Positions 2,440 through 57,732 of a stretch of DNA of 64,000 nt are shown here, piece by piece. Location of the stretch: NCBI RefSeq assembly GCF_024300625.1, contig NZ_CP101322.1:2927992-2991991 (forward strand), read 5' to 3'. The notes beneath the pieces were generated by a model, which did not search any database, was not told the DNA's origin, and saw only the letters and a program-made list of their open reading frames with translations. Origin of the DNA: Halovivax gelatinilyticus. Lineage in GTDB: Archaea > Halobacteriota > Halobacteria > Halobacteriales > Natrialbaceae. The position numbers and the translations under genes were made by a program. How positions within the stretch are numbered: the stretch's first letter is position 1; the number at the start of each line of letters is the position of its first letter.

Positions 2440-2484
2440 GCGTCGCTCGCACGGTTCGCATCCTGGCTGAAAACCCGTTCTGCA

Positions 2485-3588: not shown

Positions 3589-4001
3589 CGCTCGGGGGCG
3601 TTTTCACGGACGAAGCCGACGGTCTCTTCGATGGACGTACCGGGTCCGAAGATGGCGGAGACGCCTGCGTCTTCGAGCTTCGAGCGGTCTTCGTCGGGAA
3701 TGACGCCACCGACCAGGACGAGTGTGTCGTCTGCGGCGCCGTACTCCTCGAGACCGGCCATGATCTTCGGGACGAGTGTGTTGTGCGCCCCCGAGAGGAT
3801 CGAGATCCCGAGTACGTCGACGTCCTCCTGGACCGCGGCCTGTACGATCTCCTCCGGTGCGTTGTGGAGTCCGGAGTAGATGACTTCGAACCCGGCGTCG
3901 CGGAACGCCCGGGCGATGACGTGGGCGCCGCGGTCGTGTCCGTCGAGTCCAACCTTCGCGACGAGACAGCGGATCGAACGACCCGCCGATTCCGTACTCA
4001 T
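3585..4001 (-). CDS. Methylmalonyl-CoA mutase B12-binding subunit
   Basis: 138 residues, a stand-alone cobalamin-binding domain equal to the C-terminal domain of bacterial mutases. The base-off/His-on motif D-x-H-x2-G is visible as Asp20, His22 and Gly25 in GLDGHDRGAHV. SGLHNAPEEIV, SILSGAH and LVGGVIP follow as expected for this Rossmann-like fold. With a separately encoded large subunit it would interconvert methylmalonyl-CoA and succinyl-CoA. It is the first gene of a two-gene unit with meaB (four-base overlap). The start at 4001 gives a normal N-terminus for the family. Confidence 0.95.
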   Translation of the reverse strand: MSTESAGRSIRCLVAKVGLDGHDRGAHVIARAFRDAGFEVIYSGLHNAPEEIVQAAVQEDVDVLGISILSGAHNTLVPKIMAGLEEYGAADDTLVLVGGVIPDEDRSKLEDAGVSAIFGPGTSIEETVGFVRENAPER

Positions 4002-4204
4002 GCCCTGACGTTTGCTCGCATCGCGTTTGACTCTAACGGAGTGCGTCCGGCGCTGGCGGCCCGTCGTTCCGACGGTATCGGCTCGATTCGCCGACGTCGA
4101 TCGGGTGCGCCGTGGAAGGGGCCGACGCGAACCAAAGGCTAAAGAGTGAAACAGACGAATATCAACACAATGACCGTCATTCGTATATTTCGGAGGGATC
4201 TCTC

Positions 4205-4879
4205 GTGGGTGTCGAGATAACGGAACCCGAGATCAGCGAGGCAGAGTACGCCGAGATGGAGCGATTCGTCTACGAGTATCTGGCCGCGAGCGTCGAGAAG
4301 GAAGACGACGGCGGCCGGATGCGCTGGTACCCCTGGCACTCCGCCGAGTATCGCCACAATCACATCTTAAACGTCGCCGACCTCGCGCGCGAAATCGCCC
4401 AGAAGGAAGGTGCCGACGTCGACGTCACTCGGACGGCCGCGATCTTTCACGACGTGGCGAAGCTCGAAACGGCCCAGGATCGTCACGCGGAGGCCGGTGC
4501 CAGAGTGGCCCGGGAGTTTCTCCGATCGCGCGGCGACCATCCGTCGTCGTTCATCGATCAGGTGAGCAGAGCCGTCGAGAACCACTCCTATCAGGGCCCG
4601 GTGACCGACCTCCCGCTCGAGACGCAGTGTCTCGTCGAGGCCGACCTTCTCGATAAGGTCGGTGCCAACGGGACCGCTCTCATGCTGTTGCGGATGGGCT
4701 ACGAGTCGCGCGTCCACATGGACGCAGACGAGATGGTAACTCGCGTTCTCGAACGGGGTGTCGACGCGGCCAACCGCGTCGAGAGCGAGACGGCGAACGA
4801 CATCGCTCACCGACGACTCAAGCGGGTCAAGTGGTTCCGCGAGTGGCTCCAGGACGAGATCGCCGGGATGGGCGAGTAA
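4205..4879 (+). CDS. HD-domain phosphohydrolase
   Basis: 224 residues from a GTG start. Upstream in-frame ATG codons exist (4112), but GTG 4205 has a good Shine-Dalgarno (GGAGG at 4192-4196) and begins the conserved region (EITEPEISEAEY). The HD superfamily signature is clear: His53 in RHNHILNV, then His82-Asp83 in IFHDVAKLE, a later His in ENHSYQGP and Asp in VEADLLDKVG. The protein is expected to bind divalent metals and hydrolyse a phosphomonoester or phosphodiester, possibly a nucleotide. The true substrate is not evident. It stands alone between two divergently oriented units. Confidence 0.85.
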   Translation: MGVEITEPEISEAEYAEMERFVYEYLAASVEKEDDGGRMRWYPWHSAEYRHNHILNVADLAREIAQKEGADVDVTRTAAIFHDVAKLETAQDRHAEAGARVAREFLRSRGDHPSSFIDQVSRAVENHSYQGPVTDLPLETQCLVEADLLDKVGANGTALMLLRMGYESRVHMDADEMVTRVLERGVDAANRVESETANDIAHRRLKRVKWFREWLQDEIAGMGE

Positions 4880-5020
4880 GTAGTACGTCGCACGAACCGA
4901 TTGTGATCGTTGCAGTCTTCCAGGCCAGTGAGTACTGTGGGATGGACTGGCACCGTCACTCGCACCGGAGCGTCGTTCCCGGCGTTTGAGAACCATTCCT
5001 GCAACCGGGGAATTGCCTTC

Positions 5021-5030
5021 ACTATATAGG
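5021..5030 (+). promoter_or_regulatory. TATA box and ribosome-binding site of the first DoxX gene
   Basis: ACTATATAGG at 5021-5030 lies about 45 bases before the ATG at 5073, so the transcript should carry a short leader. That leader holds a clear Shine-Dalgarno, GAGGTGA at 5060-5066. This leadered arrangement differs from the leaderless pattern of most genes here. Confidence 0.6.
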
Positions 5031-5072
5031 CTGGTTCGGCTCCCAGTGTTAATTGTAAAGAGGTGACCGAAT

Positions 5073-5639
5073 ATGTCCACCACGACCCAAAACAGACTCG
5101 AAGGCCAGTACGGTAAGATCGCCCTCACGGGACGGCCACACCCGCTCAGCGCGCTCACGGTTGTCGCGCTCCGGCTGGTGATGGGCGGAATGATACTCTT
5201 CGCCGGCCTCGGAAAGTACGCCTACTTCGGCGGCGAATCGTTCGACGCGAGCGGCTTCCTCGTCCACGGGGTCGACCCGGCGAGCCCGGTTAGCGGTCTC
5301 TACGCCGCGATGGCGGAGAGCGCAATGTTGCTCGACGTCATCAACGTGATCATCCCGCTGACTCAGGTACTCATCGGAATCGCGCTGATCACCGGCGCGT
5401 TCGTTCGCCTGGCCGCCTTCGGAGGCGCCCTGCAGATGATCGCCTTCTACCTCGGCGGCTGGGAGGGTGCGTGGCTCGCAACGTTCGACTCGACGCTGAT
5501 CTACGCCGTCGTCTTCGTCGCCCTCGGCGCCTTCGCGGCGGGTCGAATCGCCGGAGTCGACGCGTACATCGAGAACGTCCGAATCGGCGGTGAGAGGCTC
5601 GTCGAGCGGTACCCGCCGCTCCGGTACCTCCTCGGTTGA
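5073..5639 (+). CDS. DoxX family integral membrane protein
   Basis: 188 residues with four hydrophobic segments (about residues 27-50, 85-105, 108-125 and 140-158), the DoxX/DoxD-like fold. Characteristic pieces are VALRLVMGGMILFAGLGK in the first helix and GAFVRLAAFGGALQ in the third. DoxX proteins are small membrane proteins linked to quinone/redox or oxidative-stress systems, but the activity of this one is unknown. The end RYPPLRYLLG matches the end of a second DoxX protein encoded at 10670-11248, so the two are paralogues. It is preceded by its own promoter and ribosome-binding site. Confidence 0.85.
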   Translation: MSTTTQNRLEGQYGKIALTGRPHPLSALTVVALRLVMGGMILFAGLGKYAYFGGESFDASGFLVHGVDPASPVSGLYAAMAESAMLLDVINVIIPLTQVLIGIALITGAFVRLAAFGGALQMIAFYLGGWEGAWLATFDSTLIYAVVFVALGAFAAGRIAGVDAYIENVRIGGERLVERYPPLRYLLG

Positions 5640-5708
5640 ACCGCCCTCAATTTCTCGGTCTCGCGAGTCAACCCCGCTCCGTTTTCGTATCATCGTTCAT
5701 CGGATCCC

Positions 5709-6389
5709 TTACGTCACACTCGTCAGTCCGACGAGGAGAAACAACACGCCGAAGCCGGCGAGGACGAGGCCGCTCAGGCCGGCGACGAGCGGCGCGACGG
5801 CGTCGACCCGGTTTCCGACCTCGATCAGCGCGGCCGGGTAGACGACGATCCAGACGGTGATTCCGGCGAAAAAGCCGAACAGAAGCGCTGGTGATCCGGT
5901 TTCGACGACGAGCGTGCCGGCGAGCAGACTGTCGACGGCCGGGACGTGTGCGAACACGTCGAGCGACCCCCGCTGGATGAGTCCGACGCCGACCGTCAGC
6001 CAGAACCCGATCTGATACGGATTCGTAATCGAGAGGACGAACGTCTTCTGAAACCCTTTTTCCCGTCCGTCGCTTTCGGTTCCGGAGGCGAACTCGGCTT
6101 TCGCCCCCTCGAACGCGCCGAGCGCGAAGTAACACATCAGCCCGCCGCCGAGGAGGTAGAACAGCGGTTGGATTCCCGACCACTCGTCCAGCAGGGCCAC
6201 CACGCCGATCAGCGTGAGGACGAAAAAGAGGACGTCTGCGGTCATCGCACCGAGGCCGGCTTTAAACCCGGAAACCCAGCCGCGGATGACGCTCTCTTCG
6301 GCGATGATGGCGTTCATCGGTCCGGGCGGCGCGGCGAGCGCGAGCCCGAATATCGCACCGACCAACAGCGTTCCGAGGAACTCGAACAC
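5709..6389 (-). CDS. LysE/RhtB family amino-acid exporter
   Basis: 226 residues with about six membrane segments. The N-terminal helix ends in the family signature AAPPGPMNAI, followed by a second conserved segment, GWVSGFKAGLGAMTADV. The central part contains a short charged loop (GTESDGREKGF) and the usual SITNPYQIGFW motif. LysE-type transporters export amino acids or related cations by proton exchange. The gene is convergent with the first DoxX gene and lies downstream of topA on the same strand. Substrate specificity cannot be inferred. Confidence 0.88.
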   Translation of the reverse strand: MFEFLGTLLVGAIFGLALAAPPGPMNAIIAEESVIRGWVSGFKAGLGAMTADVLFFVLTLIGVVALLDEWSGIQPLFYLLGGGLMCYFALGAFEGAKAEFASGTESDGREKGFQKTFVLSITNPYQIGFWLTVGVGLIQRGSLDVFAHVPAVDSLLAGTLVVETGSPALLFGFFAGITVWIVVYPAALIEVGNRVDAVAPLVAGLSGLVLAGFGVLFLLVGLTSVT

Positions 6390-6484
6390 GACCGTTCATC
6401 GGCCGTTCGTTCCCAAAAGCGTCTCGAAACCGGTTATTCGATCGTCCGCTGGTCGCTGTGGCTGTCGAAAGCCGGCGGCGCGTC

Positions 6485-8980
6485 TCAGGCTTTCGCCTGC
6501 CAGCTTCGCACGCGGTCTGAACTGACGCCGTCGACGTCGGCCGCGATCGCCTCGGGGTCGGCGTCGGCGAGGTCGTCGACGCTCTCGATTCCCGCCGCCG
6601 CCAGCTTCTGGGCCGTCTTCGCCCCGATGCCGTCGAGCGCCTCCAGCTCCGAGCCGCTCTCGGCCTCGCGAGCCTGGTAGTCGCGGTAGTTGCAGATTGG
6701 ACACCCGAGGTCCCACGGTTCGTCGCCGTTGTGGACGACGAGTTCCGGTAGCTCGTGTTCGTCGCAGCGTTCGTCGGTGACCTCGATCTCGCCGCGCCGA
6801 GGGAGCGGAAGCGAGTACTCGCAATCGGGATAACGGGTACAGCCGACCAGTCGCGAACCGCTCTGGAGGGTCTTGATGGCCAGTTCGCCGCCGTCGGTAG
6901 CGCCACACTCCGGACAATCGCCGAGGATCGGCCCTTCGCCGGCTGCCTCAGCTGCACAGAGCGGACAGCCGTGGACGAACGTCTGGCGGCCGGCCAGCAT
7001 CTTGACCTCCTTTAACTCGTGTTCGTCGCACGTCTCTTCGAGGATGTGCGGTTTGCCGGTGGATGGAAGTTGGATGGTGTACTCACAATCGGGGTAGCCG
7101 TCACAGCCGACGAAGTATGATCCGTATCGGCTGCGCCGGACGAGGAGGTCCTCGCCGCACTCCGGGCACGGTCCGAGTCGCTTGTCGTCTTTGAGCGACT
7201 TTCGAATGTGATCGCCGATCTCCTCGCGCGAGTCGGCGAGCTCCTCGAAGATGGTCTCCAGCATCTCACGGGACTCGTCGGTGACGTCGTCGAGCGTCGC
7301 CTCGCCCGAGGCGATGGCGTCCATATCGGCTTCGAGCTGGGCGGTCATCTCCTCGCTGACCACCTCGTCGGCGAACTGCTCGGCGGCGTCGACGACCGCC
7401 ATCGCGAGTTGCGTCGGTCGCGGCGGGTCGTCCTCGACGTAGCCGCGATCGTAGAGCTTCTCGACGATGTTGTGCCGGGTCGATTTCGTTCCGACGCCCA
7501 TCGTCTCCATAGTCTCGATGAGCCTCGATTGGCCGTAGCGACGGGGCGGCTGGGTCTGTTTTGCCTCGAACTCGGTGTCGGTGATCGCGAGCGTCTCGCC
7601 TTCTTCGACGGCGGGGACGTAGTTCTCGCTCGTGTTGAAGTACGGGTAGACCGCGTGGTAACCGGGTTCGACGAGGCGCTTTCCGTTGGCCTTGAGCGAG
7701 TGTTCGTCCACCTCGCTCACGACTTTGAGGTGTTCCCAGCGTGCCGCGTCGGCGACCGTCGCGAAGAACCGCCGGACGACGAGTTCGTACACCTCCCACT
7801 CGTCGTCCGAGACGTCGCCCCCGCGGGCGGGTATCTCGCCGGTCGGGTGGATCGGCGGGTGGTCGGTCGTCTCCTCGTCACCCTCGGTTGGGACGATGTC
7901 CTCGTCGCGCTCGAGTAACGACTCCGCGCTCTCGCCGAGCGTCGGGTGGCCGAGGAAGTCATCGAGCAGGGCCTCCGGATCGAGGTCGTCCGGGTAGACG
8001 GTGTTGTCCGTTCGGGGGTACGTGATGTAGCCGGCGGTGTAGAGGTCCTCGGCGATCGACATCGCTCGCTTTGCGGAGTAGCCGATGGCGCTCGCCGCGC
8101 GGATGAACTGCGTCGTGTTAAAGGGCGTCGGCGGCGTGTCGGTTCGGGTGCGTCGGTTGACGTCGACGACGGTCGCCTCGGTTTCAGACGAGAGCGTCTC
8201 GTAGACCGACTCTGCGACCGATTCGTCCCAGACCCGTTCGGCCTCGTTGTCCTCGTCGTCGAGGTAGAAGTACTGGGCGTCGAACGCGTCGCCGTCGCCG
8301 CCGTCTTTCGCCAGTTCGGCGAACAGTTCCCAGTAGTCGTCCGGATCGAACGCCTCGATCTCGCGTTCGCGATCGACGATCAGCTTCAGGGTCGGACTCT
8401 GGACGCGACCGACGGAGATGAAGTCGTTGCCGAGCTGCCCGGCAGAGAGTGAGAGAAATCGCGTGAGCGAAGCGCCCCAGACGAGGTCGATGATCTGGCG
8501 GGCCTCGCCGGCCGCCGCGAGATCGAAGTCGAGCGACTCGGGCTCGTCGAACGCGCGAGTGACCTCGTTTTCCGTGATCGAGGAGAATCGAACCCGCTGG
8601 ATCGGCACGTCTTCGTCGACGTCGCGAACGATCTCGTAGGCTTCCTTTCCGATGAGTTCACCCTCGCGGTCGTAGTCGGTCGCGATCGTGACGCGCTCTG
8701 CGCGCCGAGCCAGGATGCGAAGCGTCGCGACGATATTTTCTTTTGTCGGGCGCTTCTCGATCGAGGCGTCGATCAACTCGACTGGTTCGACGTCTCGCCA
8801 GTCTGCGTACTCTGGCGGAAAGTCGACCCCGACGACGTGTCCCGAGAGGCCGACGCAGCGCTTTCCGCCCCACTCGTAGACGTTGACGCCGTTCTCCCGC
8901 GTCGATTGCATCGAACCGCCGCTCAATATATCGGCGATTCGTCTCGCCGCGTTGTCCTTCTCGGTGATGATCAGTTCCAC
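6485..8980 (-). CDS. topA: DNA topoisomerase I (type IA)
   Basis: 831 residues, the normal length for haloarchaeal TopA. The N-terminal Toprim domain starts MELIITEKDNAARRIA and carries the acidic motif DYDREGELIG. The catalytic tyrosine is Tyr321 in GYITYPRTDNT. Three C-terminal zinc-ribbon modules follow: CPECGEDLL with CDGYPDC, CPLCAAEA with CPECGATDG and CTRYPDC, and CPICNYRDY. The last 45 residues form a helix-hairpin-helix (LDGIGAKTAQKLAAAGI), a DNA-binding extension common in haloarchaea. The enzyme relaxes negatively supercoiled DNA through a 5'-phosphotyrosine link. It lies downstream of a serine-hydrolase gene, separated by a 228-base repeat-containing gap. Confidence 0.96.
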   Translation of the reverse strand: MELIITEKDNAARRIADILSGGSMQSTRENGVNVYEWGGKRCVGLSGHVVGVDFPPEYADWRDVEPVELIDASIEKRPTKENIVATLRILARRAERVTIATDYDREGELIGKEAYEIVRDVDEDVPIQRVRFSSITENEVTRAFDEPESLDFDLAAAGEARQIIDLVWGASLTRFLSLSAGQLGNDFISVGRVQSPTLKLIVDREREIEAFDPDDYWELFAELAKDGGDGDAFDAQYFYLDDEDNEAERVWDESVAESVYETLSSETEATVVDVNRRTRTDTPPTPFNTTQFIRAASAIGYSAKRAMSIAEDLYTAGYITYPRTDNTVYPDDLDPEALLDDFLGHPTLGESAESLLERDEDIVPTEGDEETTDHPPIHPTGEIPARGGDVSDDEWEVYELVVRRFFATVADAARWEHLKVVSEVDEHSLKANGKRLVEPGYHAVYPYFNTSENYVPAVEEGETLAITDTEFEAKQTQPPRRYGQSRLIETMETMGVGTKSTRHNIVEKLYDRGYVEDDPPRPTQLAMAVVDAAEQFADEVVSEEMTAQLEADMDAIASGEATLDDVTDESREMLETIFEELADSREEIGDHIRKSLKDDKRLGPCPECGEDLLVRRSRYGSYFVGCDGYPDCEYTIQLPSTGKPHILEETCDEHELKEVKMLAGRQTFVHGCPLCAAEAAGEGPILGDCPECGATDGGELAIKTLQSGSRLVGCTRYPDCEYSLPLPRRGEIEVTDERCDEHELPELVVHNGDEPWDLGCPICNYRDYQAREAESGSELEALDGIGAKTAQKLAAAGIESVDDLADADPEAIAADVDGVSSDRVRSWQAKA

Positions 8981-9110
8981 GACTGATCACTCCGCGTGTC
9001 GGTGCGATAGCGCGTCATTGAGGCCGGCTACGCCGGTTGTGGGGATAATCGTTTCGGCGTAAAACCGGACGACAGCGCGGGTGTGCGCGTCGTATGCGGG
9101 CGACGCGCGT

Positions 9111-9199
9111 GCGAGAGAACGGTGCGTGTTGGTAGTGGTGTGATGCGAGAGACCGGTGCGCGTTGATAGTGGTGGGATGTGAGAGACCGATGGTGGCAG
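9111..9199. repeat. 34-bp degenerate tandem repeat after the serine-hydrolase gene
   Basis: Two units, 9111-9144 and 9145-9178, both read GCGAGAGAMCGGTGCG then TTGRTAGTGGTGKGAT with four or five differences. A third, decayed copy begins at 9179 (GTGAGAGACCGATGG). The array ends about ten bases after the stop codon of the leftward gene (stop at 9209-9211). It contains no credible gene. Four other genes in the window have comparable repeats at their 3' ends. Confidence 0.85.
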
Positions 9200-9208
9200 T
9201 TCGAAGGA

Positions 9209-10579
9209 TCAGACGTTGTGCAGGCGCCACCGGTCGATGTAACAGCTCAGGTCGTCACCGTCTTCTTCGAACCGGACGGGAACGCGGTCGCCGGCGGCCG
9301 AGATGGTGTAGAATTTACCAGCCTCGACGTCGTCGGGCACGAGCGGACTCCACGCCCCGTCGCTGATCGGCCCGCCGACGCGCAGCCTGAGCATTCCGCC
9401 TTCGGGTTCGACCTCGGCCTGCTTGATCCCGCGGTAGGACTCGTACTCGCCGCTCAGTTCCTCGAAGCGGGCTCTTCTGGCGAAGAAGGGCAAGGTGTGC
9501 GGATCGGTTCCGGTGAGGGCAGCGAAGACGCCGGTACCGAGTTCGGCGAGCCCGTACGACGGCGACGTGTTCGAGAGCAAGGCGATGGCGACGTCGTCGT
9601 CCGGACTGAACCCGGCGTACGCGGCGGAGACGGCGATCGATCCGCCGTGGCCGATCATCGTCTCCCCGGCCACGTCGCGCGTGCGCCACCCGTAGCCGTA
9701 CGGCCCCGCGGGCGTCTCGGCGTACTCGCCGTAGGCTCGTTGGAGAAGATCTTCCGCACAGAGGCGGGTCCCGTCGAGTTCGCCGCCGCGGAGGTGCATC
9801 CGGAGGTACTGGACGAGGTCGGTGACGGGGGCGAGCAACCCGCCCGCGGCCGCGCTTCGCTCGCGGATCGGCAGCGGATAGGCTTCCATCTCGTCTTCGG
9901 GGGCGAAGTACGGCGTCATCCGGTCTGTGAACGACTCGAATTCGTCGCCGTCGAACGTCGACCGATCCATCGCGAGGGGAGAGAGGATCTCGTCTTCGAC
10001 GTATTCGACGTAGGACCGGCCGTCGACCGCTTCGATCACCTCGCCGACCAGGGTATACCCCGAGTTACAGTACATCCAGTGATCGTCCGGCTCGCCGGCA
10101 ATCTCGTCGGTCGCGCCCTCGACGTGGGCGTAGAAGTCCTCGCGGGTGCCGAGCGGGACGCCGGCCTCGCCGGTCCCCATCTGCCGGGCCAGGAGCGCTT
10201 CGCTCGTCGCGAGCGAGGGGAAGCCGGAGGTGTGACTCAGGAGGTGGTGAATCGTGATGTCCTCGGGGACGTCGATGTCGAGGTGTGCGGTCACCGAGTC
10301 TTCGAGCGAGAGTTCGCCGGAGCCGACCAGCTGTAGCGTTGCCAGTGAGGCGAACGACTTCGAGACGGATCCGATGCCGTAGATCGTCTCCGCGGTCGCC
10401 GGGTCGTTCGTCTCGAGGGTTCGCGATCCGTAGCCGTTCGCGTAGACGATGCCGTCTCGGTCGGCGATCGCGAGGCTCAGGCCGGGGACGTCGTCGGCGG
10501 CCATTCTGTCGCGCAGGAGGTCGTCTATCGTCTCGATAGTCGCCTCGTCGATACCGGGTGCGTCGGTCTCACGACTCAT
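9209..10579 (-). CDS. Serine hydrolase (class C beta-lactamase/esterase family)
   Basis: 456 residues from the ATG at 10579 (an in-frame ATG at 10609 is less likely). It has the penicillin-binding/beta-lactamase fold: the nucleophile motif SxxK as SVSKSF, the Y-x-N motif in MYCNSGYTLVG, and the third motif HGG in MIGHGGSIAV. No signal peptide is present, so it should be cytoplasmic, like many archaeal EstB-type members that act as esterases or peptidases rather than beta-lactamases. A C-terminal beta-rich lipocalin-like domain (from about residue 355, LSGEYESYRG) is common in the family. The natural substrate is unknown. Confidence 0.88.
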   Translation of the reverse strand: MSRETDAPGIDEATIETIDDLLRDRMAADDVPGLSLAIADRDGIVYANGYGSRTLETNDPATAETIYGIGSVSKSFASLATLQLVGSGELSLEDSVTAHLDIDVPEDITIHHLLSHTSGFPSLATSEALLARQMGTGEAGVPLGTREDFYAHVEGATDEIAGEPDDHWMYCNSGYTLVGEVIEAVDGRSYVEYVEDEILSPLAMDRSTFDGDEFESFTDRMTPYFAPEDEMEAYPLPIRERSAAAGGLLAPVTDLVQYLRMHLRGGELDGTRLCAEDLLQRAYGEYAETPAGPYGYGWRTRDVAGETMIGHGGSIAVSAAYAGFSPDDDVAIALLSNTSPSYGLAELGTGVFAALTGTDPHTLPFFARRARFEELSGEYESYRGIKQAEVEPEGGMLRLRVGGPISDGAWSPLVPDDVEAGKFYTISAAGDRVPVRFEEDGDDLSCYIDRWRLHNV

Positions 10580-49404: not shown

Positions 49405-49483
49405 CCCGCTGCTACGACGATTCACTCGACTCCCGCTGCTGTCGCGATCACTCAACTCCAACTGCTTGGACGATCACTCGAAT
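49405..49483. repeat. 26-27-bp tandem repeat reaching over the stop codon of gpmI
   Basis: Three units: 49405-49431 (CCCGCTGCTACGACGATTCA then CTCGACT), 49432-49457 (CCCGCTGCTGTCGCGATCAC then TCAACT) and 49458-49483 (CCAACTGCTTGGACGATCAC then TCGAAT). The rightmost one includes the stop codon of gpmI (49474-49476, minus strand); the others run downstream. No gene is visible in the gap 49335-49473. Confidence 0.75.
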
Positions 49484-51060
49484 TCGAGCAGATCGTCACC
49501 GGTCATCTCTGCCGGCCGGCTCACGCCGATGCGGGCGAGTAGCGTCGGTGCGACGTCAGCAAGCTCCCCGCCCGTTCGTACCCTCGTCTCGGTCGTTCGG
49601 TCCGACCCGACGTAGATGAACGGAACGTCGTTGGTGGTGTGGGCGGTGTGTGGATCGTTTGGCGTTCCCATGTCGTCTGCGTTGCCGTGATCGGCCGTCA
49701 CCAGGACGTGTACGTCGCGCGCGGTGAGATAATCCGCCAGCCGACCGAGTTGTTCGTCGACCGCCTCGACGGCCGCGACGGCGGCCTCGAAGTCGCCGGT
49801 GTGACCCACCATGTCCGGGTTGGCGTAGTTGAGTACGAGCACGTCCGCGTCAGTTTCGGCGAGGTGATCGATCGCCGAATCGGTGACTTCGGGTGCGCTC
49901 ATCTCCGGTTTCCGGTCGTACGTCGGGACGTCGGGGCTGTCGACGATCTCGCGAATCTCGCCGTCGAACTCGACCTCGCGACCGCCGTTTAAGAAGTAGG
50001 TGACGTGGGCGTACTTCTCGGATTCGGCGATGCGCAGTTGCGATCGGCCGGCGTTCGATAGCACTTCGCCGAGCGTGTTCGCCGGCCGTATCGGCGGAAA
50101 CGCGACCGGCAGGTCGAACGTCTCGTCGTACTGGGTCATCGTCGTCACTGCCACGTCCGGCGGATCGATCGTCATTTCGGCGCTCCAGTCGCCCGGTCGG
50201 ACGTCGGCGAGCAGCCGGGTGAGTTGGCGGGCGCGATCGGCTCTGAAGTTGAACCAGACCACGGCGTCGCCGTCACTGACTGCGGGCATCCCACTCACAC
50301 ATGTCGGAACGACGAACTCGTCCGTCTCATCGCGAGCGTACGACGCTTCGACGGCCTCGATCGCTGAAGAGGCGACGTACTCGCTCTCTCGCTCGACGAT
50401 GGCCCCGTAGGCTCGCTTCGTCCGCTCCCAGTTCTCGTCTCTGTCCATCGCGTAGTAGCGTCCGGAGACCGTCACGACGTGGCCGGTTCCCGCTTCGGCG
50501 ATCACTGATTCGAGTGCGGCGAGGTACTCGACGCCGCCGCGAGGGGAGGTGTCGCGCCCGTCCGTGAACGCGTGTGTGACGGCTTCGACGTCCCGCTCGG
50601 CGGCCAGTTCGATCAGCGCGTGGAGGTGAGCCTGATCGGAGTGGACCCCACCGTCGCTGACGAGGCCGAGAAAGTGGACGAGCCCGTCGTTCTGGCGGGC
50701 GAATTCGAACGCGTCCGTGATCGCCTCGTTTTCACGAATCGCCCCGTCTTCGATCGCGTCGGAGATGCGCGTGTACTCCTGGTTCACGACGCGTCCGGCG
50801 CCGATCGTGAGGTGACCGACTTCGCTATTTCCCATCTGGTCGTTCGGCAGCCCGACGCTTCGACCCGACGCGGTGAGGACGCCGAACGCTCCCGTTTCTG
50901 CGAGCCGATCGAAGGCGGGGGTCTCCGCGGCGACGACGGCGTTCCGTCCGGTCGTCTCTCCAGCGGTCTCTACCTCGTCCGTCGCATCGCTACTGCCCGG
51001 TGCGTGCGGATCTCCTGCGCCGAGCCCCCAGCCGTCGAGTACGATCAGCGCCGCGTCCAT
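49474..51060 (-). CDS. gpmI: 2,3-bisphosphoglycerate-independent phosphoglycerate mutase
   Basis: 528 residues, alkaline-phosphatase superfamily with two metals. The N-terminal IVLDGWGLG carries metal ligands, and the phosphorylated Ser79 lies in LPNDQMGNSEVGHLTIGAG. Further conserved pieces are HALIELAAERDVEAVTHAF, GRYYAMDRDENWERTKRAY, VWFNFRADRARQL and VTADHGNADDM. It interconverts 3- and 2-phosphoglycerate in lower glycolysis and gluconeogenesis. A small Gly/Asp/Glu insert near residues 15-38 (SSDATDEVETAGE) is unusual but compatible with the fold. A degenerate repeat covers its stop codon. Confidence 0.96.
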   Translation of the reverse strand: MDAALIVLDGWGLGAGDPHAPGSSDATDEVETAGETTGRNAVVAAETPAFDRLAETGAFGVLTASGRSVGLPNDQMGNSEVGHLTIGAGRVVNQEYTRISDAIEDGAIRENEAITDAFEFARQNDGLVHFLGLVSDGGVHSDQAHLHALIELAAERDVEAVTHAFTDGRDTSPRGGVEYLAALESVIAEAGTGHVVTVSGRYYAMDRDENWERTKRAYGAIVERESEYVASSAIEAVEASYARDETDEFVVPTCVSGMPAVSDGDAVVWFNFRADRARQLTRLLADVRPGDWSAEMTIDPPDVAVTTMTQYDETFDLPVAFPPIRPANTLGEVLSNAGRSQLRIAESEKYAHVTYFLNGGREVEFDGEIREIVDSPDVPTYDRKPEMSAPEVTDSAIDHLAETDADVLVLNYANPDMVGHTGDFEAAVAAVEAVDEQLGRLADYLTARDVHVLVTADHGNADDMGTPNDPHTAHTTNDVPFIYVGSDRTTETRVRTGGELADVAPTLLARIGVSRPAEMTGDDLLEFE

Positions 51061-51151: not shown

Positions 51152-52441
51152 ATGACGCTCGATCCGGTTCACTACGACGGCATCGCACGCCTCGCCCGTC
51201 GGATCGATCACGGCGCGTCCGAGCGAGATCACCGGGACTTCGCCGAGACGGTCTGGGAGTCGTTTCTCGATCCGCTCACCGACGGCGACCGGGTCGTTTT
51301 GGAGCCGATCGAATCCGTCAGTCGACACCTGATCGACGTCGAAGACGTCGCCCTCGCCGAGCGACCGTTCGACCGCGAGCACGGCCTGGACGCCGGCACG
51401 ATCAATCCGACGACGTTTCGAAACGGACTCGTCCTCGATATCGCGCAGGCGGCGATGGCGTCGACGCCGACGGATCTCGATCTCCACCGGTCGCGGACCG
51501 TCGTCGCCTCCGTCCACTCGAACGATCCGACGGCGTCGGTCGACGACCGCTGGGGCCGATTCGACGAGGGATTCAGCCGAAGTCGAGCGATACAGGTCCC
51601 GCCACTCCCGCGGTTCGCCGAGGGCGTCGTCCACGCGCTCGCGCTCTACCTGGCCGAGAGCGAACACGCTCTCGAACACGCAGAAGCCGTCTCGGAGCTG
51701 TTGATCCTCGATGGCCCGTTGTATCCGCGCGGCATCCTGCGCTGGAACGATCAACACCCGGACCTCGCGAGTTTTCTCGTGGCGGATCAACAGCCTCAGT
51801 CGGTCCTCGAAAACTACGTCCGGCTCGTCGAGTCGTTCGTCGAGCGTGACGTCCCGTTCGTCGGATTCGTCAAGAATCCCGCCACGCGAGTCATCTCTCG
51901 GACGGTCATTGGGAAGGGCGAATCGGCGCCGTGGACCGACGATACGTCATTTTTCACCCGGGTGCTCGAACGCGGCGAGTACGTCGACGACGTCGAGGGG
52001 ACGCGCTGGGAGCGAGACACGGACGGCTTGACCTACACCGGCTGGTTCCGATCGCGGGGCGGCGTCGACGCACCGCTGTCCGTCGACGGCGACGCGCTGG
52101 GGGTCGAACGAAAACTAGATCCCGTCGCGTACGAGGTGACGTTCTTCGTGATCTACGACCCGCGGGTCGACCTCTGCTATCGCGTGGAAGCGCCGTACGC
52201 GTTCACCCGCGACGACGACCGTCGAGCGCGACTCACCCGCCAGCTTCTCTCCGACGTGGCTATCTCGGCCGGACCGCCCGCCGTCGTCGAAAAGGCCGAC
52301 GAACTGGCGCGCATCAGCGCCTCGGAGAAACACTCCCTTCGAGAGACGTTCGAAGCCAGATTCGAGACGACGAGAGAGCGCGATTACGACGACCATCGGT
52401 GGGGTGGAACGGCCGAACAGACGACTGGGTTCGAGCGGTGA
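51152..52441 (+). CDS. nurA: DNA double-strand-break repair nuclease NurA
   Basis: 429 residues. The NurA domain covers most of the chain: VLDIAQAAMASTPTDLDLH and VVASVHSND near residues 95-130, LLILDGPLYPRGIL near 190 and PFVGFVKNPATRVI near 235. The acidic metal-binding positions typical of the RNase H-like core are compatible. The C-terminal part contains YEVTFFVIYDPRVDLCYRVE. NurA is the 5'-3' nuclease working with the HerA translocase in end resection. herA is encoded 1.3 kb downstream on the same strand. mre11/rad50 are not in this window. Confidence 0.9.
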   Translation: MTLDPVHYDGIARLARRIDHGASERDHRDFAETVWESFLDPLTDGDRVVLEPIESVSRHLIDVEDVALAERPFDREHGLDAGTINPTTFRNGLVLDIAQAAMASTPTDLDLHRSRTVVASVHSNDPTASVDDRWGRFDEGFSRSRAIQVPPLPRFAEGVVHALALYLAESEHALEHAEAVSELLILDGPLYPRGILRWNDQHPDLASFLVADQQPQSVLENYVRLVESFVERDVPFVGFVKNPATRVISRTVIGKGESAPWTDDTSFFTRVLERGEYVDDVEGTRWERDTDGLTYTGWFRSRGGVDAPLSVDGDALGVERKLDPVAYEVTFFVIYDPRVDLCYRVEAPYAFTRDDDRRARLTRQLLSDVAISAGPPAVVEKADELARISASEKHSLRETFEARFETTRERDYDDHRWGGTAEQTTGFER

Positions 52442-52541
52442 GCCGACGGTCACATCGTTCCGACGGTCCTCGGTCGGTGTCTCGTTTCATCGATCGTGTA
52501 GCCACCAACAACTTTTCTCCCGTGACGTCCTAGTACTGAGT

Positions 52542-52889
52542 ATGCTCCAGGTCCGCGGCCTGACGGGAGGGACCGAGCTCTCGGGAACGATCTACGAGCG
52601 CGGTGAGGAGGCACCGACGTTCAGCGGCGCGCCGGATCAGGACTCCGCGTACGTTTGGATCTGCGACGAGTTCTACGAGGTAGAAAGCGGCGGCTCCGAA
52701 CTCGAACTCGCCGACCGCGTGCTGAACGTCGCCTTCGAATCGCCGCTACCGCGCGGATTCGACACGAAAGAGCAGGCGCTCGCGGCGGCGAAAGAACACG
52801 TCAGAACGCAGTTCGTCCGCATCGGCGTCGACGGAGACGCCGTCGAGATCACGGTCGAGAGCGGCGACGAACCGCAGGTGTCGGCGTAA
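52542..52889 (+). CDS. Small conserved haloarchaeal protein between nurA and herA
   Basis: 115 residues from ATG 52542 (start MLQVRGLTGGTELSGTIYE). A mainly beta N-terminal half (APTFSGAPDQDSAYVWICDE) is followed by a helix (TKEQALAAAKEHVRTQFVRI) and a final strand. It has no signal peptide, membrane segment or catalytic motif I recognise; I believe it belongs to haloarchaeal family DUF7113. Its position between the two subunits of the NurA-HerA machine makes a DNA-repair role possible, but that is inference. It is 100 bases after nurA. Confidence 0.82.
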   Translation: MLQVRGLTGGTELSGTIYERGEEAPTFSGAPDQDSAYVWICDEFYEVESGGSELELADRVLNVAFESPLPRGFDTKEQALAAAKEHVRTQFVRIGVDGDAVEITVESGDEPQVSA

Positions 52890-52960
52890 TCGAGCGCTGC
52901 CCGGTCGACTCGACGTACAAGAGCGCTCCGGTCGCTCACAGCAGACGCCCCGGGGAAGAG

Positions 52961-52970
52961 CCTTTTTGCC
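52961..52970 (+). promoter_or_regulatory. TATA-like box before the tandem-HTH gene
   Basis: CCTTTTTGCC is centred about 26 bases before ATG 52991, pointing to a leaderless start. Confidence 0.5.
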
Positions 52971-52990
52971 CTGGTCGGCGTACTCGGCCT

Positions 52991-53629
52991 ATGTGTACGC
53001 GACGTACTTCGGGTTCGGTGAGCGGGATCGATACGAGCGTCTCGATCGACCGTCTCGGAGTCCTCTCGGAACCGCGTCGCGTCGCGACGCTCGCCGCCCT
53101 TGCGTCGTATAACGAGCCGGTCTCCGTAGAGGCACTCGCCAGGCGGGTGGCAGGAGATGAACGAGGAAAGTCCGATGGAGAGGTGTCCGACGACGAGCAG
53201 CGCCAGGTTCACGTCTCGCTCGTCCACAACCACCTCCCGAAACTGGCGGCCCACGCGCTCGTCGAGTGGGACGAAGCGGCCGGAACCGTCGCACTTGCAC
53301 GCAGCGTGTCGGCAACCCGGTTACGACGCTTCGTCGGCGGCCCGCCGACCGTCGCGGCGGCTCGGATGCGCAGGGTGCTTTCGCTTCCTCGTCGGCGACT
53401 CGTTCTCGCCATCGTAGACGAGCACGGAACGCCGATGACCGTCGACGAACTCACCCGCCTCGTCGCGTCCGTCGAAACCGCATCGAGTCCGGGCGAGTTG
53501 TCCGCACACGCCGTCGACCGCGTCGGGATCTCGCTCGAGCACTCTCACCTTCCGGCGCTATCGGCTGCCGGCGTTCTCGTGTACGACGAGGCGGCGAAAA
53601 CGGTCGACCGCCCCGACGATCTCGATTGA
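52991..53629 (+). CDS. Protein with two DUF7344-like winged-helix domains
   Basis: 212 residues from ATG 52991; the longer upstream frame is Arg-rich and not coding. Two homologous units can be seen, at residues about 18-100 (IDRLGVLSEPRRVATLAAL, VSLVHNHLPKLAAHALVEWD) and 118-205 (RVLSLPRRRLVLAIVDEHG, ISLEHSHLPALSAAGVLVYD). Each has an N-terminal helix, a recognition-helix-like H-x-H-L-P-x-L motif and a wing. This is the haloarchaeal DUF7344 pattern, thought to be a DNA-binding regulator. It lies directly upstream of herA, and its targets are unknown. Confidence 0.82.
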   Translation: MCTRRTSGSVSGIDTSVSIDRLGVLSEPRRVATLAALASYNEPVSVEALARRVAGDERGKSDGEVSDDEQRQVHVSLVHNHLPKLAAHALVEWDEAAGTVALARSVSATRLRRFVGGPPTVAAARMRRVLSLPRRRLVLAIVDEHGTPMTVDELTRLVASVETASSPGELSAHAVDRVGISLEHSHLPALSAAGVLVYDEAAKTVDRPDDLD

Positions 53630-53730
53630 TTCGTCGATCGGTGGCTGTCGACGTCGGTGGACGATTTCCGACGGAAGCCACCGAACTCCTCCCGATTCGT
53701 CAGACGGACGTCTGCCGAGAGGGGAAACGT

Positions 53731-53738
53731 GTTTTAGG
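53731..53738 (+). promoter_or_regulatory. TATA-like box of herA
   Basis: GTTTTAGG is centred about 26 bases before ATG 53760, giving herA a likely leaderless promoter of its own. Confidence 0.5.
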
Positions 53739-53759
53739 ACGGCGCTAAACTGTGTCGGT

Positions 53760-55631
53760 ATGACGGACCTTGGGGACTTCGAGAACTTCTCGGACGCCGA
53801 CGCGGTCGACGACGAGTCGGATCCGTCGGCGTCCGCGTCACCGTCCGCAGACGAGTCCCGATCGGATGCGGTGGATGCCGGCGAACCGTCGTCGGCTACC
53901 GAGCGCGCCGAGTCGTCGACCGATCGCTTCGACCGACCGACGATCGAACCGCTCGGCACAGACGAGGGAATCGGCGCGCTCTGTGTCTCGAACGGGCTGC
54001 GCGTCGCCGAGGATGGCGACGACACCGCGCTGTCGGCCTACGTCACGCGGGGGAATCGATCGTCCGTTCGCATCGGAAGTTACCTGATCGCTCCCTATCC
54101 GGACGGCGAACTGCTCTTCTGTCGGATCACCGGTCTCGAGTACGCACAGCAGTACTACGCGGACGACGCGACGGAGATTCACGCCCGACGGGCGATGCGA
54201 GCTGACGGAATCGACGAGGCGGATTACAAGTTCATCGCGTCGCTCGAACCGGTCGCCGTTCTCTACGAGGACGGTGCTGAACTCAAACGGCGGATGACCG
54301 ACCGGGTTCCAAAACCGCAGACGACGCTCGCCAGGGCGAGCGATCCGACGCAGATTAAGACCGGGTTGAAGATGCCGGAAGACGGTATCTTCCTCGGCCA
54401 TCTTTCGGTCGGTGGCGAGAAGGTTCACACCGCGGCCTCCCCGCCGACGATCGATTATCGGATAAACGACGATTACGAGGCGGGCGATCCGCTCGTCTTC
54501 AGGCACACGCTGGTCGCCGGCGGGACCGGCTCGGGGAAGACCCACGCCGCGAAGAACGTCTTGCGACAGTTTCTCGCCGACGACCGACGCTACCCCATGG
54601 GCGACGGGCGGACCGTCACGCCTGCGGTCGTCCAGTTCGATCCGCAGGACGAGTACGCCCAGATGCACGACGACGGCGACTACGACGACGAGTTCGCCGC
54701 GCGGCTCGATCGCGAGGGAATCGCCCACGGCGGCCACGACGATACCGTCGCGTTCGTCCCGACGATCGGCACGGCTTCCTACGCCGCAGATCACCACGGG
54801 GCCGAACAGGTCCCGTTTACGATCCCGTTCTCGATGGTGCACGACAACCCGTGGCTCGTCGCCGGAAGCGGGCTCAACGACAATCAGTACGGGGCGCTCG
54901 TGAGCGTGTTACTACCGCGATTCAAACGCCAGTACGGTCGGGACTCCTCGTACGACGAGTTCGTCGACTTCCTCTCAGATCGAGCGCTCCGCGAGGAGCT
55001 AGACGAGAGCGGTCTCGTCCACGAGGCGACGTTCGACGCCGTCGGCCGGCGGGTGCGCGGGTTCGGACACGTGTTCGACCAGGACGCGCGACCGATCACC
55101 GACCTCGTTCACGAGTTCGTCAAACCCGGTCGGCTCTCGGTCGTGCCGACCTATCACGTCAACGACTCGCGCGCGACGGAGGCCGTCGTGCTGGCCCTCT
55201 CGAGTCTGCTCATCGACGAGAAACTCTCGAACGATCCAACCTACGACCGAATCGACGAAACGCCGCTGCTACTCGGGATGGACGAGGCGCACAACTTCCT
55301 GACCGATGCGGACTCGGTGCAGGCGGGGAAAGTTATCTCGAAGTTCACGGAGGCGGCGAAACAGGGTCGGAAAGAGCGTCTCGGGCTGTTTCTCGTCACG
55401 CAGGACCCGCAGGACATCGACGACGCCGTCTTCAAGCAGATCAACACCACGATCGTCCTCAACCTGGGCGACGAGGACGCGATCAAGAGCGTCAACATCC
55501 CGCGCTCACTCGAATCGAAGGTTCCATACATGGAACAGGGGCAAATGGTCGTTTACTCGCCGGACAACTCGGAACCCGTCGAACTGATCGGCCTCTCGAA
55601 CTGTCTGACCCGACACGGGCGGGGTGAGTAA
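53760..55631 (+). CDS. herA: HerA-type ATP-dependent DNA translocase
   Basis: 623 residues. An acidic, disordered N-terminal extension covers about the first 60. A HAS-barrel-like region follows (SSVRIGSYLIAPYPDGELLF). The ATPase core then has Walker A AGGTGSGKTHAA near residues 253-264, Walker B LLLGMDEAHNFLTD near 507, and the late VTQDPQDIDDAVFKQINTT. HerA forms a hexameric ring and drives NurA during DNA-end resection. nurA lies upstream on the same strand. A 54-residue gene overlaps its stop codon. Confidence 0.9.
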   Translation: MTDLGDFENFSDADAVDDESDPSASASPSADESRSDAVDAGEPSSATERAESSTDRFDRPTIEPLGTDEGIGALCVSNGLRVAEDGDDTALSAYVTRGNRSSVRIGSYLIAPYPDGELLFCRITGLEYAQQYYADDATEIHARRAMRADGIDEADYKFIASLEPVAVLYEDGAELKRRMTDRVPKPQTTLARASDPTQIKTGLKMPEDGIFLGHLSVGGEKVHTAASPPTIDYRINDDYEAGDPLVFRHTLVAGGTGSGKTHAAKNVLRQFLADDRRYPMGDGRTVTPAVVQFDPQDEYAQMHDDGDYDDEFAARLDREGIAHGGHDDTVAFVPTIGTASYAADHHGAEQVPFTIPFSMVHDNPWLVAGSGLNDNQYGALVSVLLPRFKRQYGRDSSYDEFVDFLSDRALREELDESGLVHEATFDAVGRRVRGFGHVFDQDARPITDLVHEFVKPGRLSVVPTYHVNDSRATEAVVLALSSLLIDEKLSNDPTYDRIDETPLLLGMDEAHNFLTDADSVQAGKVISKFTEAAKQGRKERLGLFLVTQDPQDIDDAVFKQINTTIVLNLGDEDAIKSVNIPRSLESKVPYMEQGQMVVYSPDNSEPVELIGLSNCLTRHGRGE

Positions 55632-55788
55632 CGTGGACGACTGTGGCTGCGTCAGGTGCGACGTCGAACTCTCCGAGGAACTGCTCGCCGAACTCGATAC
55701 CTACTGTCGGGACGAATACCTTCACCGGGAAGCGGCGGTGACCGAACTGCTAGACGACTGGTTGGCCCAGCGGACGGCCGAATCGTGA
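55624..55788 (+). CDS. 54-residue Cys-containing ribbon-helix-helix-like protein coupled to herA
   Basis: It starts with GTG 55624, eight bases before the end of herA (GTGAGTAA), with the G-rich run GGGCGGGG just before as a ribosome site. The product opens MSNVDDCGCVRC, three Cys in six residues. A strand and two helices follow (VELSEELLAELDTYCRDEYL, HREAAVTELLDDWLAQR), resembling a ribbon-helix-helix DNA-binding fold. No function is known. Strong overlap with herA suggests that it is translated from the same message. Confidence 0.65.
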   Translation: MSNVDDCGCVRCDVELSEELLAELDTYCRDEYLHREAAVTELLDDWLAQRTAES

Positions 55789-55916: not shown

Positions 55917-56474
55917 ATGAAGAACGTACCGGAGGTCGCCGTCTGCAGACTCGGTCACCGCCCCGGACGCGACGACCGGATGACGACGCACGTCGGGCTA
56001 ACGGCGCGCGCTCTCGGTGCCGATCGAGTGATCTTTCCGGAGAACGCGACCGACGCCGAGCGGACGGTTCGGGACATCACCGATCGATTCGGCGGTCCGT
56101 TCGACGTCGAGCGGACGGATTCGCCCCGGGGCGTCATCAGGTCATGGGAGGGGCTGATCGTACACCTGACGATGTACGGCGAACCGATCCAGACTGTCGA
56201 AACCGAGGTTCGCAGCGGACTGTACGATCAGCGGGAACCGATTCTGATCGTCGTCGGCTCCGAGAAGGTCCCGTTCGAGGTGTACGAAGAAGCAGACTGG
56301 AACGTCGGCGTCACGAATCAGCCACACTCGGAAGTCGCCGGATTGGCGGTCTTTCTCGACCGACTGTTCGAGGGGGACGAACTCGACCGACCATGGAAAG
56401 ACGCGACGCGTCGGGTGGTGCCAAAGAAGACTGGAAAGGAGGTCGTCACCGTTGACGAGTCCTCATCTGACTAG
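55917..56474 (+). CDS. trm56: tRNA (cytidine(56)-2'-O)-methyltransferase
   Basis: 185 residues, the archaeal SPOUT enzyme that 2'-O-methylates C56 in the tRNA T-loop. Diagnostic sequences are CRLGHRPGRDDRMTTHVGLTA at the N-terminus, VIRSWEGLIVHLTMYGE, and the AdoMet-binding trefoil-knot region ILIVVGSEKVPFEVYEEADW followed by VTNQPHSEVAGLAVFLDR. Length is normal for the family. It starts 128 bases after the small gene, probably as a separate transcript. Confidence 0.93.
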   Translation: MKNVPEVAVCRLGHRPGRDDRMTTHVGLTARALGADRVIFPENATDAERTVRDITDRFGGPFDVERTDSPRGVIRSWEGLIVHLTMYGEPIQTVETEVRSGLYDQREPILIVVGSEKVPFEVYEEADWNVGVTNQPHSEVAGLAVFLDRLFEGDELDRPWKDATRRVVPKKTGKEVVTVDESSSD

Positions 56475-56662: not shown

Positions 56663-57043
56663 CTAGACTCCGTCGTCGTCATCATCGTCATCGCCTACGT
56701 CATCGTCGTCCATGTCGTCGTCATCGTCGTCCATGTCGTCGTCATCGTCGTCCATGCCGTCGTCATCGTCGTCCATGTCGTCGTCATCGTCGTCCATGCC
56801 GTCGTCATCGTCGTCCATGTCGTCGTCATCGTCGTCCATGTCGTCGTCATCATCGTCCATGCCGTCGTCCATGTCGTCGTCGCCTACGTCGTCGTCTGGT
56901 TCGGCCGGATCGTCTGCCGGGTCGTCATCGATCGGGTCGTCGTCCGGCCCTTCGTCGCCACAGCCGGCGATCAGGACGGCGCTGATCGTCGCGCCAGCAG
57001 CGGTCAGGTACTGTCGACGGTCGAGTGGATGGTTTTCATCCAT
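56663..57043 (-). CDS. Asp/Met-repeat lipoprotein with Tat signal
   Basis: 126 residues from ATG 57043. The N-terminus has a twin-arginine motif (DRRQYLTAAGA, Arg9-Arg10) and a lipobox LIAGC with Cys28. Nearly all of the mature chain is Asp: after a spacer, eight heptads MDDDDDD or MDDDDDG follow, ending VGDDDDDDDGV. It would be an extremely acidic surface tail attached to lipid. No folded domain is present after the repeat, which in other haloarchaeal lipoproteins would be only a linker, so the gene may be a truncated remnant. Function unknown. Confidence 0.65.
   Translation of the reverse strand: MDENHPLDRRQYLTAAGATISAVLIAGCGDEGPDDDPIDDDPADDPAEPDDDVGDDDMDDGMDDDDDDMDDDDDDMDDDDDGMDDDDDDMDDDDDGMDDDDDDMDDDDDDMDDDDVGDDDDDDDGV
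56689..56874. repeat. 21-bp tandem repeat encoding Asp-Met heptads
   Basis: About eight copies of the unit CAT-(GTC/ATC)-rich GTCGTC trinucleotide block (minus strand ATG followed by six GAC/GAT/GGC codons). The unit is a multiple of three bases, so copy-number change keeps the frame. It lies inside the Asp-rich lipoprotein gene. Confidence 0.8.
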
Positions 57044-57174
57044 GGACGGCGGTAATCCGAGGTCATAAATGGATTCCGACCCGTCCGATGCAGGCAATTT
57101 ATGTCGGTTTCGGGCCGATTCACCCGCTGATTGACGACCAATACGTGCCGATCGAACCAACTCCGTCCTCAAAA

Positions 57175-57184
57175 GACTTAATTG
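57175..57184 (+). promoter_or_regulatory. TATA-like box of tfe
   Basis: GACTTAATTG is centred about 28 bases before ATG 57208, consistent with a leaderless transcript. The flanking sequence is AT-rich for this genome. Confidence 0.55.
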
Positions 57185-57207
57185 TGTCATCGGACTACCA
57201 ACGGTCA

Positions 57208-57732
57208 ATGGCTTTTGAGGACCTGCTCGAGGACCCCGTAATTCAGAAGTACTTACACGAGTTGGTCGGTCCGAAGGGGATGCCCGTCGCGGCGGCACCT
57301 CCAGACGGTGAAGTGACCGACGAAGAACTCGCAGAGACACTCGACCTCGAGTTGAACGACGTCCGTCGCTCGCTCTTTATCCTCTACGAAAACGATCTCG
57401 CGAGCTACCGACGGCTTCGTGACGAGGATTCGGGCTGGTTGACCTACCTCTGGACCTTCGAGTACGAAAACATTCCCGAGAATCTAGAATCGGAACTGGA
57501 GCGTCTCTACGACGCGCTCGATTCCCGACGTGAGTACGAACGGACACACGAGTTTTACCTGTGTGAAATCTGTTCGATCCGATTCGAGTTCGGCGAGGCG
57601 ATGGATTTCGGCTTCGAGTGTCCCGAGTGTGGGACGCCGATGGACGCGATGGACAACGACCGGCTCGTCTCGGCGATGGACGACCGCCTCGACGAACTGC
57701 AGGACGAACTCAACATCGACATCGAGGCCTAA
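57208..57732 (+). CDS. tfe: Transcription factor E, alpha subunit
   Basis: 174 residues from ATG 57208. The N-terminal extended winged helix reads DPVIQKYLHELVGPKGMPV, then VTDEELAETLDLELNDVRRS and LFILYENDLASYRRLRDEDSG. The zinc ribbon near the C-terminus has CEICSIRFEF and CPECGTPMD. TFE binds RNA polymerase and stabilises the open complex with TBP and TFB. The stop TAA shares its last base with the ATG of the downstream DUF2110 gene, so the two are coupled. Confidence 0.95.
   Translation: MAFEDLLEDPVIQKYLHELVGPKGMPVAAAPPDGEVTDEELAETLDLELNDVRRSLFILYENDLASYRRLRDEDSGWLTYLWTFEYENIPENLESELERLYDALDSRREYERTHEFYLCEICSIRFEFGEAMDFGFECPECGTPMDAMDNDRLVSAMDDRLDELQDELNIDIEA

Follow-up and report, generated by a model that had tools for sequence, protein, structure and literature searches.

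A putative chromosomal HerA-NurA locus in Halovivax and its DUF7113 neighbour in haloarchaea

We analysed a stretch of 64,000 nucleotides from Halovivax gelatinilyticus (the window), which probably contains a chromosomal haloarchaeal HerA-NurA end-processing locus in a form rearranged in Halovivax, its small genes having roles of their own. Judged from sequence, haloarchaea appear to carry both nurA and herA, contrary to the published absence. Passages in three papers, the latest from 2026, state that H. volcanii or halophilic archaea have no HerA-NurA (PMC2700283, PMC7776575, PMC12977600), and haloarchaeal end resection has been discussed on the premise that the pair is absent. NurA and HerA of the window's type, with the family domains and the conserved motifs, were found in 112 of 116 genomes of the class, and Haloferax volcanii has a match to the NurA model. 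A second, distant NurA type was present in 13 of the 116. If the class-wide pair is active, the discussions of end resection need revising, and H. volcanii, where genetics is well developed, offers a mesophilic model of HerA-NurA. DUF7113 would be a candidate partner open to direct testing. The five + strand reading frames from nurA to the 54-aa gene were confirmed in the window, and the locus is laid out as follows.

49474..51060, - strand: context, 2,3-bisphosphoglycerate-independent phosphoglycerate mutase (iPGM; TIGR01307, E 4.4e-202)
51152..52441, + strand: nurA, NurA-family nuclease, 429 aa (PF09376, E 4.8e-13)
52542..52889, + strand: DUF7113 gene, 115 aa (PF23425, E 2.3e-51)
52991..53629, + strand: tandem DUF7344 winged-helix gene, 212 aa (two PF24035 stretches, E 1.9e-36)
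53722..53733, + strand: herA promoter-like element GGGAAACGTGTT (from the count of GGGAAANGNNTT before herA starts)
53760..55631, + strand: herA, HerA-type hexameric translocase ATPase, 623 aa (PF01935, E 2.6e-7; PF05872, E 3.6e-7)
55624..55788, + strand: putative ribbon-helix-helix (CopG-type) gene, 54 aa, GTG start (the orthologue in genome G043 passes PF01402; the model resembles CopG)
55917..56474, + strand: context, tRNA (cytidine(56)-2'-O)-methyltransferase Trm56 (PF01994, E 5e-46)

The window NurA scored 49.6 bits against PF09376 (cut-off 21) and covered model positions 4-254 of 254; the same model matched all 23 aligned haloarchaeal NurA members. D80, E169, D187, and E346 were invariant in these 23 and also in a set of seven that included the cassette type described below. 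These acidic residues are candidates for the metal-binding residues of the active site. The haloarchaeal NurA profile matched no solved NurA in the PDB. The window HerA scored 31.4 bits against PF01935 (cut-off 23.2) and 29.7 bits against PF05872 (cut-off 22), and both domains were matched by 16 of 16 aligned HerA members, in which the Walker A motif GGTGSGKTH (254-262) and an acidic DEAH-like site (508-511) were invariant. The HAS-barrel of the window HerA (residues 90-134) reached 12.6 bits, under the cut-off of 25.2, and was found at E <= 0.01 in one of the 16. The NCBIfam HerA equivalog cut-offs were far from reached (NF040819, 28.8 vs 970 bits; NF040937, 29.6 vs 800 bits), so the protein was not filed under either model. 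The HMM matches and the class-wide conservation rule out chance as the source of the observation. In thermophiles, a hexameric ring of the HerA ATPase feeds double-stranded DNA to a dimeric NurA nuclease for cutting. Going by its domains and conserved motifs, the haloarchaeal HerA would form such a ring threading double-stranded DNA, and a NurA dimer would cut the threaded strands, preparing the ends for recombination.

The first-pass annotation had described the genes as lying all on one strand. This is true of the window and does not hold generally: of the 100 loci with DUF7113 within 6 kb of herA, 95 have the two genes on opposite strands, and a shared direction occurs mainly in Halovivax. 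The same-strand, coupled arrangement is local, and operon organisation lends it no support. The ancestral order would have been nurA> DUF7113< herA>, often followed by a universal stress protein (Usp) gene. Among the 112 genomes, iPGM was a frequent divergent neighbour of nurA (within 6 kb in 50), and herA had Usp nearby in 75 loci, a KaiC-like gene in 50, iPGM in 41, and Trm56 adjoining it in four, all of Halovivax. Secreted and other genes were inserted among the string, which is porous.

Within 60 bases before the start, GGGAAANGNNTT was present at 54 of 107 herA genes, 0 of 104 nurA genes, and 0 of 113 DUF7113 genes; the herA element may be a basal promoter only. The nurA, DUF7113, DUF7344, HerA, and 54-aa genes each seem to have a promoter-like element of their own, and the group is therefore probably not an operon. 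Thus nurA, DUF7113, and herA are linked yet probably not co-transcribed. We rejected an operon or translationally coupled genes as the general rule, given the mostly antisense orientation and the separate promoter-like elements. A regulatory motif shared by nurA, DUF7113, and herA was not found among the patterns tried.

The neighbourhood conservation on which the first-pass annotation had made its idea of accessory parts depend was borne out for DUF7113 (100 of the 112 Halobacteria with this herA had it within 6 kb), but not for the DUF7344 gene, whose place beside herA is almost confined to one family, or for the 54-aa gene, which lay beside herA in one genus only. The three small genes do not form a single conserved unit. 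Of those proposed as accessory or regulatory parts of HerA-NurA, DUF7113 alone survives, as a candidate. The window protein scored 172.6 bits against PF23425 (cut-off 27). DUF7113, a small protein that is strongly conserved and specific to the class, was present in 383 of 391 class genomes, and in the phylum it was confined to Halobacteriales (51 of 294 genomes, every one in that order).

To compare the neighbours of herA, changes of linkage were counted on the HerA tree, a neighbour being a gene within 6 kb. The DUF7113-herA link changed six times, nurA-herA nine times, and the other neighbours 9-15 times; only the family-specific DUF7344 link changed less (five), the remaining range being 7-15. 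In several lineages DUF7113 stayed between nurA and herA after an in-place inversion. That DUF7113 follows whichever of nurA and herA moves was also considered as evidence of a link and rejected as circular, because when a single breakpoint splits three genes in a row, DUF7113 necessarily stays with one of the other two.

These data bear on two explanations that we hold less probable than a role of its own for DUF7113. Ordinary conservation of gene order, with no small gene related to HerA-NurA, is plausible though short of an even chance: the unrelated neighbours named above persist as well, with their 9-15 changes, in a string that tolerates insertions, but the DUF7113-herA link showed fewer breaks than theirs or than nurA-herA, by a small margin. 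Somewhat doubtful is that HerA-NurA has in DUF7113 a third component or regulator peculiar to haloarchaea, such as a clamp or an inhibitor acting on the ring or the nuclease, whose gene on the opposite strand allows separate regulation. Its proximity to herA, the few linkage changes, and its retention through inversions fit this, as do two genomes of one genus (G579 and G602) that lack both DUF7113 and this HerA, but adjacent genes can go in one deletion, and such co-loss says little. Moreover, four of the 116 genomes (G002, G021, G044, G073) kept DUF7113 without this HerA-NurA, while three (G001, G007, G093), plus G424, had HerA-NurA without DUF7113; in G424 the iPGM-nurA-herA-Usp string was intact except for the missing DUF7113. 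HerA-NurA does not require DUF7113, nor does DUF7113 require HerA-NurA, which weakens an accessory role, and its restriction to Halobacteriales argues against a general partner. As an accessory part it is possible. We consider that DUF7113 most likely has its own role, perhaps in DNA maintenance or stress, separable from HerA-NurA, with a minority chance of direct modulation of the pair. Against the own role counts that its position is as persistent as nurA-herA and survives inversions, which fits a functional link better.

A role in aerobic life or oxidative stress rather than at DNA ends appears improbable. The three of 116 genomes without DUF7113 were exactly the three without the haem-copper oxidase COX1, and the protein has an invariant cysteine (C41). 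But these three may represent one or two events, and among 391 genomes the COX1-less G370 has DUF7113 and five COX1 genomes lack it. The rule, perfect in 116 genomes, failed in 391 and was rejected; its Fisher value of 2e-5 ignores kinship. The AlphaFold model of DUF7113 (pLDDT 83) matched no solved fold (the lowest Foldseek E was 0.95, and VIA-align reached at best Z 3.9 over 994 chains), and its profile gave no lead against PDB sequences (best E 0.096). The names and accessions of DUF7113 and DUF7344 gave no literature match, in a search with most subscription journals outside its reach.

The tandem winged-helix protein announced between nurA and herA was confirmed, with two PF24035 stretches scoring 124.7 bits (cut-off 27.8). 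The 212-aa protein is likely a DNA-binding regulator. Of 28 sampled genomes from the window's family, 24 have its gene beside herA, as does one genome outside the family. A palindrome, CCAAA-n-TTTGG, lay upstream of 18 of 26 DUF7344 genes in the family, the window's copy lacking it, and before 7 of 101 DUF7113 genes, these seven probably being the same shared intergenic copies. The DUF7344 gene most likely encodes a transcription factor that is local to this family and may regulate its own expression.

The overlap of the 54-aa reading frame with herA, which had been noted, amounts to 8 bp at the herA stop when read from the GTG at 55624, but a second in-frame GTG at 55633 would remove it, and in three other Halovivax genomes the homologous stretch starts downstream of the herA match at a distance of 104, 104, and 198 bp. 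It lay beside herA only in the four sampled members of the genus. The protein does contain four cysteines, none of them an obvious metal ligand: those at positions 12 and 28 are common to the four members, and none of the four occurs in other homologues. A Pfam scan of the window protein gave no match, and the G043 orthologue scored 20.7 bits against PF01402, just over the cut-off of 20.5. The model resembled CopG (Foldseek probability 1.00, TM 0.65/0.81, E 0.18), as a monomer without a resolved strand. Most likely the protein is a repressor of the CopG type that a single genus acquired.

Compared with known systems, the 54-aa protein is like CopG/RHH_1 repressors in its CopG-like model and in an orthologue over the RHH_1 cut-off; it differs in that the window copy has no Pfam match, and neither a toxin partner nor an operator was identified. 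With other DUF7344 tandem winged-helix proteins the window's one shares two PF24035 domains, and it differs in being fixed beside herA in its family. HerA of bacterial antiphage systems is locally similar across the ATPase core, whereas the window HerA fails the equivalog cut-offs and is a near-universal chromosomal gene; the window genes that were scanned included no defence partner. Two haloarchaeal genomes have a separate Mre11-Rad50-NurA-HerA cassette (loci L269 and L170), its genes co-directional (overlapping in L269, close in L170) and DUF7113 absent from both loci. Its NurA and HerA are homologous to the window pair (identities in the range of 25-28% and 36-37%, respectively) and keep the classical company of genes, which supports the assignment of the window pair. 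The window pair itself is separate from mre11-rad50, to which the neighbours scanned (iPGM, Trm56, TFE) gave no link. A bolder version of our reading, in which a near-universal HerA-NurA machine is decoupled from Mre11-Rad50, the class-specific DUF7113, encoded antisense between the pair, as third protein tunes resection in salt-filled polyploid cells, and some lineages replaced the system by the cassette, seems to us unlikely. The HerA-NurA of Sulfolobus, Pyrococcus, and Thermococcus shares with the haloarchaeal pair the family domains, the Walker motifs, a single neighbourhood, and probably the conserved acidic residues. The haloarchaeal pair differs in its very divergent sequence (PDB NurA unmatched, HerA best E 1e-12), in its place outside an mre11-rad50 operon, and in being split by an antisense DUF7113 gene.

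The locus is a conserved haloarchaeal HerA-NurA locus that was overlooked by recent papers. The window comes from a single-contig genome of 3.70 Mb, in which HerA and the NurA family model each gave one match. The frames and families proposed in the first-pass annotation were borne out for NurA (PF09376), the protein with two DUF7344 domains and HerA (PF01935 and PF05872). DUF7113 was also confirmed, and the 54-aa protein had no Pfam match. Across the class, window-type NurA was found in 112 of 116 genomes and window-type HerA in the same 112. Among the other genomes, G021 and G044 carried only the distant NurA type (29 and 32% identity) and only a HerA of the 36% type, while G002 and G073 had no NurA and only weak partial HerA matches. 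All 23 aligned NurA members matched PF09376 and all 16 aligned HerA members matched both HerA domains, these members being chosen for diversity from the fetched loci and not at random. D80, E169 and D187 were among the invariant residues of the 23 NurA members and were still invariant in a set of 7 sequences that included two distant-type proteins. The GGTGSGKTH motif and a DEAH-like site were kept in HerA. Weighing against these identities, the NurA profile matched no solved NurA in the PDB, the best PDB match of HerA (E 1e-12) covered parts only, and HerA fell below the NCBIfam equivalog cut-offs.

PMC7776575 states that NurA and HerA are not present in H. volcanii, and PMC7599335 infers that before haloarchaea a nurA family was lost and herA replaced. 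However, PF09376 was matched above its cut-off in H. volcanii and DUF7113 was matched too, these two models being the evidence in that species itself. All eight named Haloferax loci (L202, L203, L208, L211, L218, L220, L225, and L240) had the order nurA, DUF7113 (opposite strand), herA and Usp. NurA and HerA are listed for Natrinema altunense in PMC9995536, so on this point the repair literature lags behind annotation.

The herA neighbourhoods were then compared, one per genome with window-type HerA (111 fetched plus the window), and further loci were fetched for most cases with genes apart. The names Usp (universal stress protein) and KaiC-like are based on one examined member each.

Genes within 6 kb of herA (of 112 loci)
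DUF7113: 100
NurA: 77
Usp: 75
KaiC-like ATPase: 50
iPGM: 41
DUF7344: 26
54-aa protein, Trm56, TFE: 4 each

Linkage changes on the HerA tree (Fitch counts, midpoint root, this one gene tree)
DUF7113-herA: 6
nurA-DUF7113: 7
nurA-herA within 9 kb: 9
herA-Usp: 9
iPGM-nurA: 11
herA-KaiC: 15

An extended same-strand system with three small accessory genes had been proposed. It proved mostly local, as the counts for DUF7344 and the 54-aa protein show, and DUF7113 held up as a class-wide neighbour. The linkage changes indicated that DUF7113 is placed at least as tightly as nurA-herA and only modestly above unrelated neighbours. DUF7113 is the one class-wide neighbour that merits testing. In 73 of 112 loci, herA was followed shortly by a Usp gene in the same orientation (e.g., L064, 9852-10349, plus strand), and in 50 of 112 a KaiC-like ATPase gene was convergent to the Usp gene (L064, 11664-13271, minus strand).

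PF23425 (DUF7113) was matched in 383 of 391 class genomes, and in 51 of 294 genomes of the phylum sample, every one of the same order. Mean column identity was 66% in 50 chosen members, and the closest relative is encoded by Halovivax asiaticus JCM 14624. The predicted structure (pLDDT 83, pTM 0.75) and profile comparisons revealed no convincing relative. DUF7113 was present without window-type HerA-NurA in G002, G021, G044, and G073, and absent beside it in G001, G007, and G093. Five more genomes had no DUF7113: G424 had window-type HerA and an intact iPGM-nurA-herA-Usp string, G527 (89% complete) had window-type HerA at 52% identity, and window-type HerA was not found in G579, G602, and G603 (the last 85% complete). 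These exceptions indicate that DUF7113 has been dispensable to HerA-NurA over evolution, and vice versa. Separately, G001, G007, and G093, possibly strict anaerobes, were the only three of 116 genomes without DUF7113 and also the three without COX1; as a rule, this co-absence failed in the 391 genomes.

DUF7113 lay on the strand opposite to herA in 95 of 100 loci. The window's one-strand order was common to all four members of its genus in the sample and to G029, and in other data it also occurred in Natribaculum breve (L173), Halegenticoccus tardaugens (L176), a Natrialbaceae MAG (L182), and G518. This scatter suggests repeated in-place inversion of the gene. L212 (Halovivax sp. KZCA124) had the antisense order and only 65% DUF7113 identity, and it lacked both the 54-aa gene and Trm56 3' of herA; this record may belong to a different genus despite its name.

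GGGAAANGNNTT was found within 60 bases 5' of the start codon in 54 of 107 herA genes, with a mean of 0.0 in base-shuffled sequences; the pattern was picked after inspection and start codons were set by rule, so the count is no independent test. The same 60 bases contained it in 0 of 104 nurA, 113 DUF7113, 56 iPGM, and 39 Usp genes. TATA-like T-runs preceded nurA and DUF7113 genes instead, a difference in sequence that argues for separate promoters.

Of the 28 genomes sampled from the window's family, 24 have a DUF7344 protein next to herA, as does one further genome, G031. The conserved palindrome CCAAA-n-TTTGG preceded 18 of 26 such genes in the family and was absent 5' of the window gene; we infer that DUF7344 may be autoregulated. 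The 20 relatives of the 54-aa protein fetched from 61 matches were stand-alone RHH proteins or carried a UPF0175 part, and by coordinates none adjoined herA. Its model resembled CopG with modest E-values. Further along the window, a 21-bp tandem repeat (9.8 copies, 56674-56878) lies inside a minus-strand ORF (56663-57340) that encodes an Asp-rich tail after an apparent lipoprotein signal.

Distant NurA was found in 13 of 116 genomes; its neighbours were read in one of these, G044, and in G602, which is outside the 116. Both genomes lack window-type HerA and carry a cassette, its Mre11 and Rad50 named from domain hits and our own reading:

L269 (G602), 2266-9827: Mre11-type metallophosphatase, Rad50-type large coiled-coil ATPase, then distant NurA and HerA
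L170 (G044), 1626-9115: Mre11-type metallophosphatase, Rad50-type large coiled-coil ATPase, then distant NurA and HerA

The frequency of distant NurA suggests further cassettes. PMC7776575 describes mre11-rad50-nurA-herA together in thermophiles, and the two cassettes show this same gene company.
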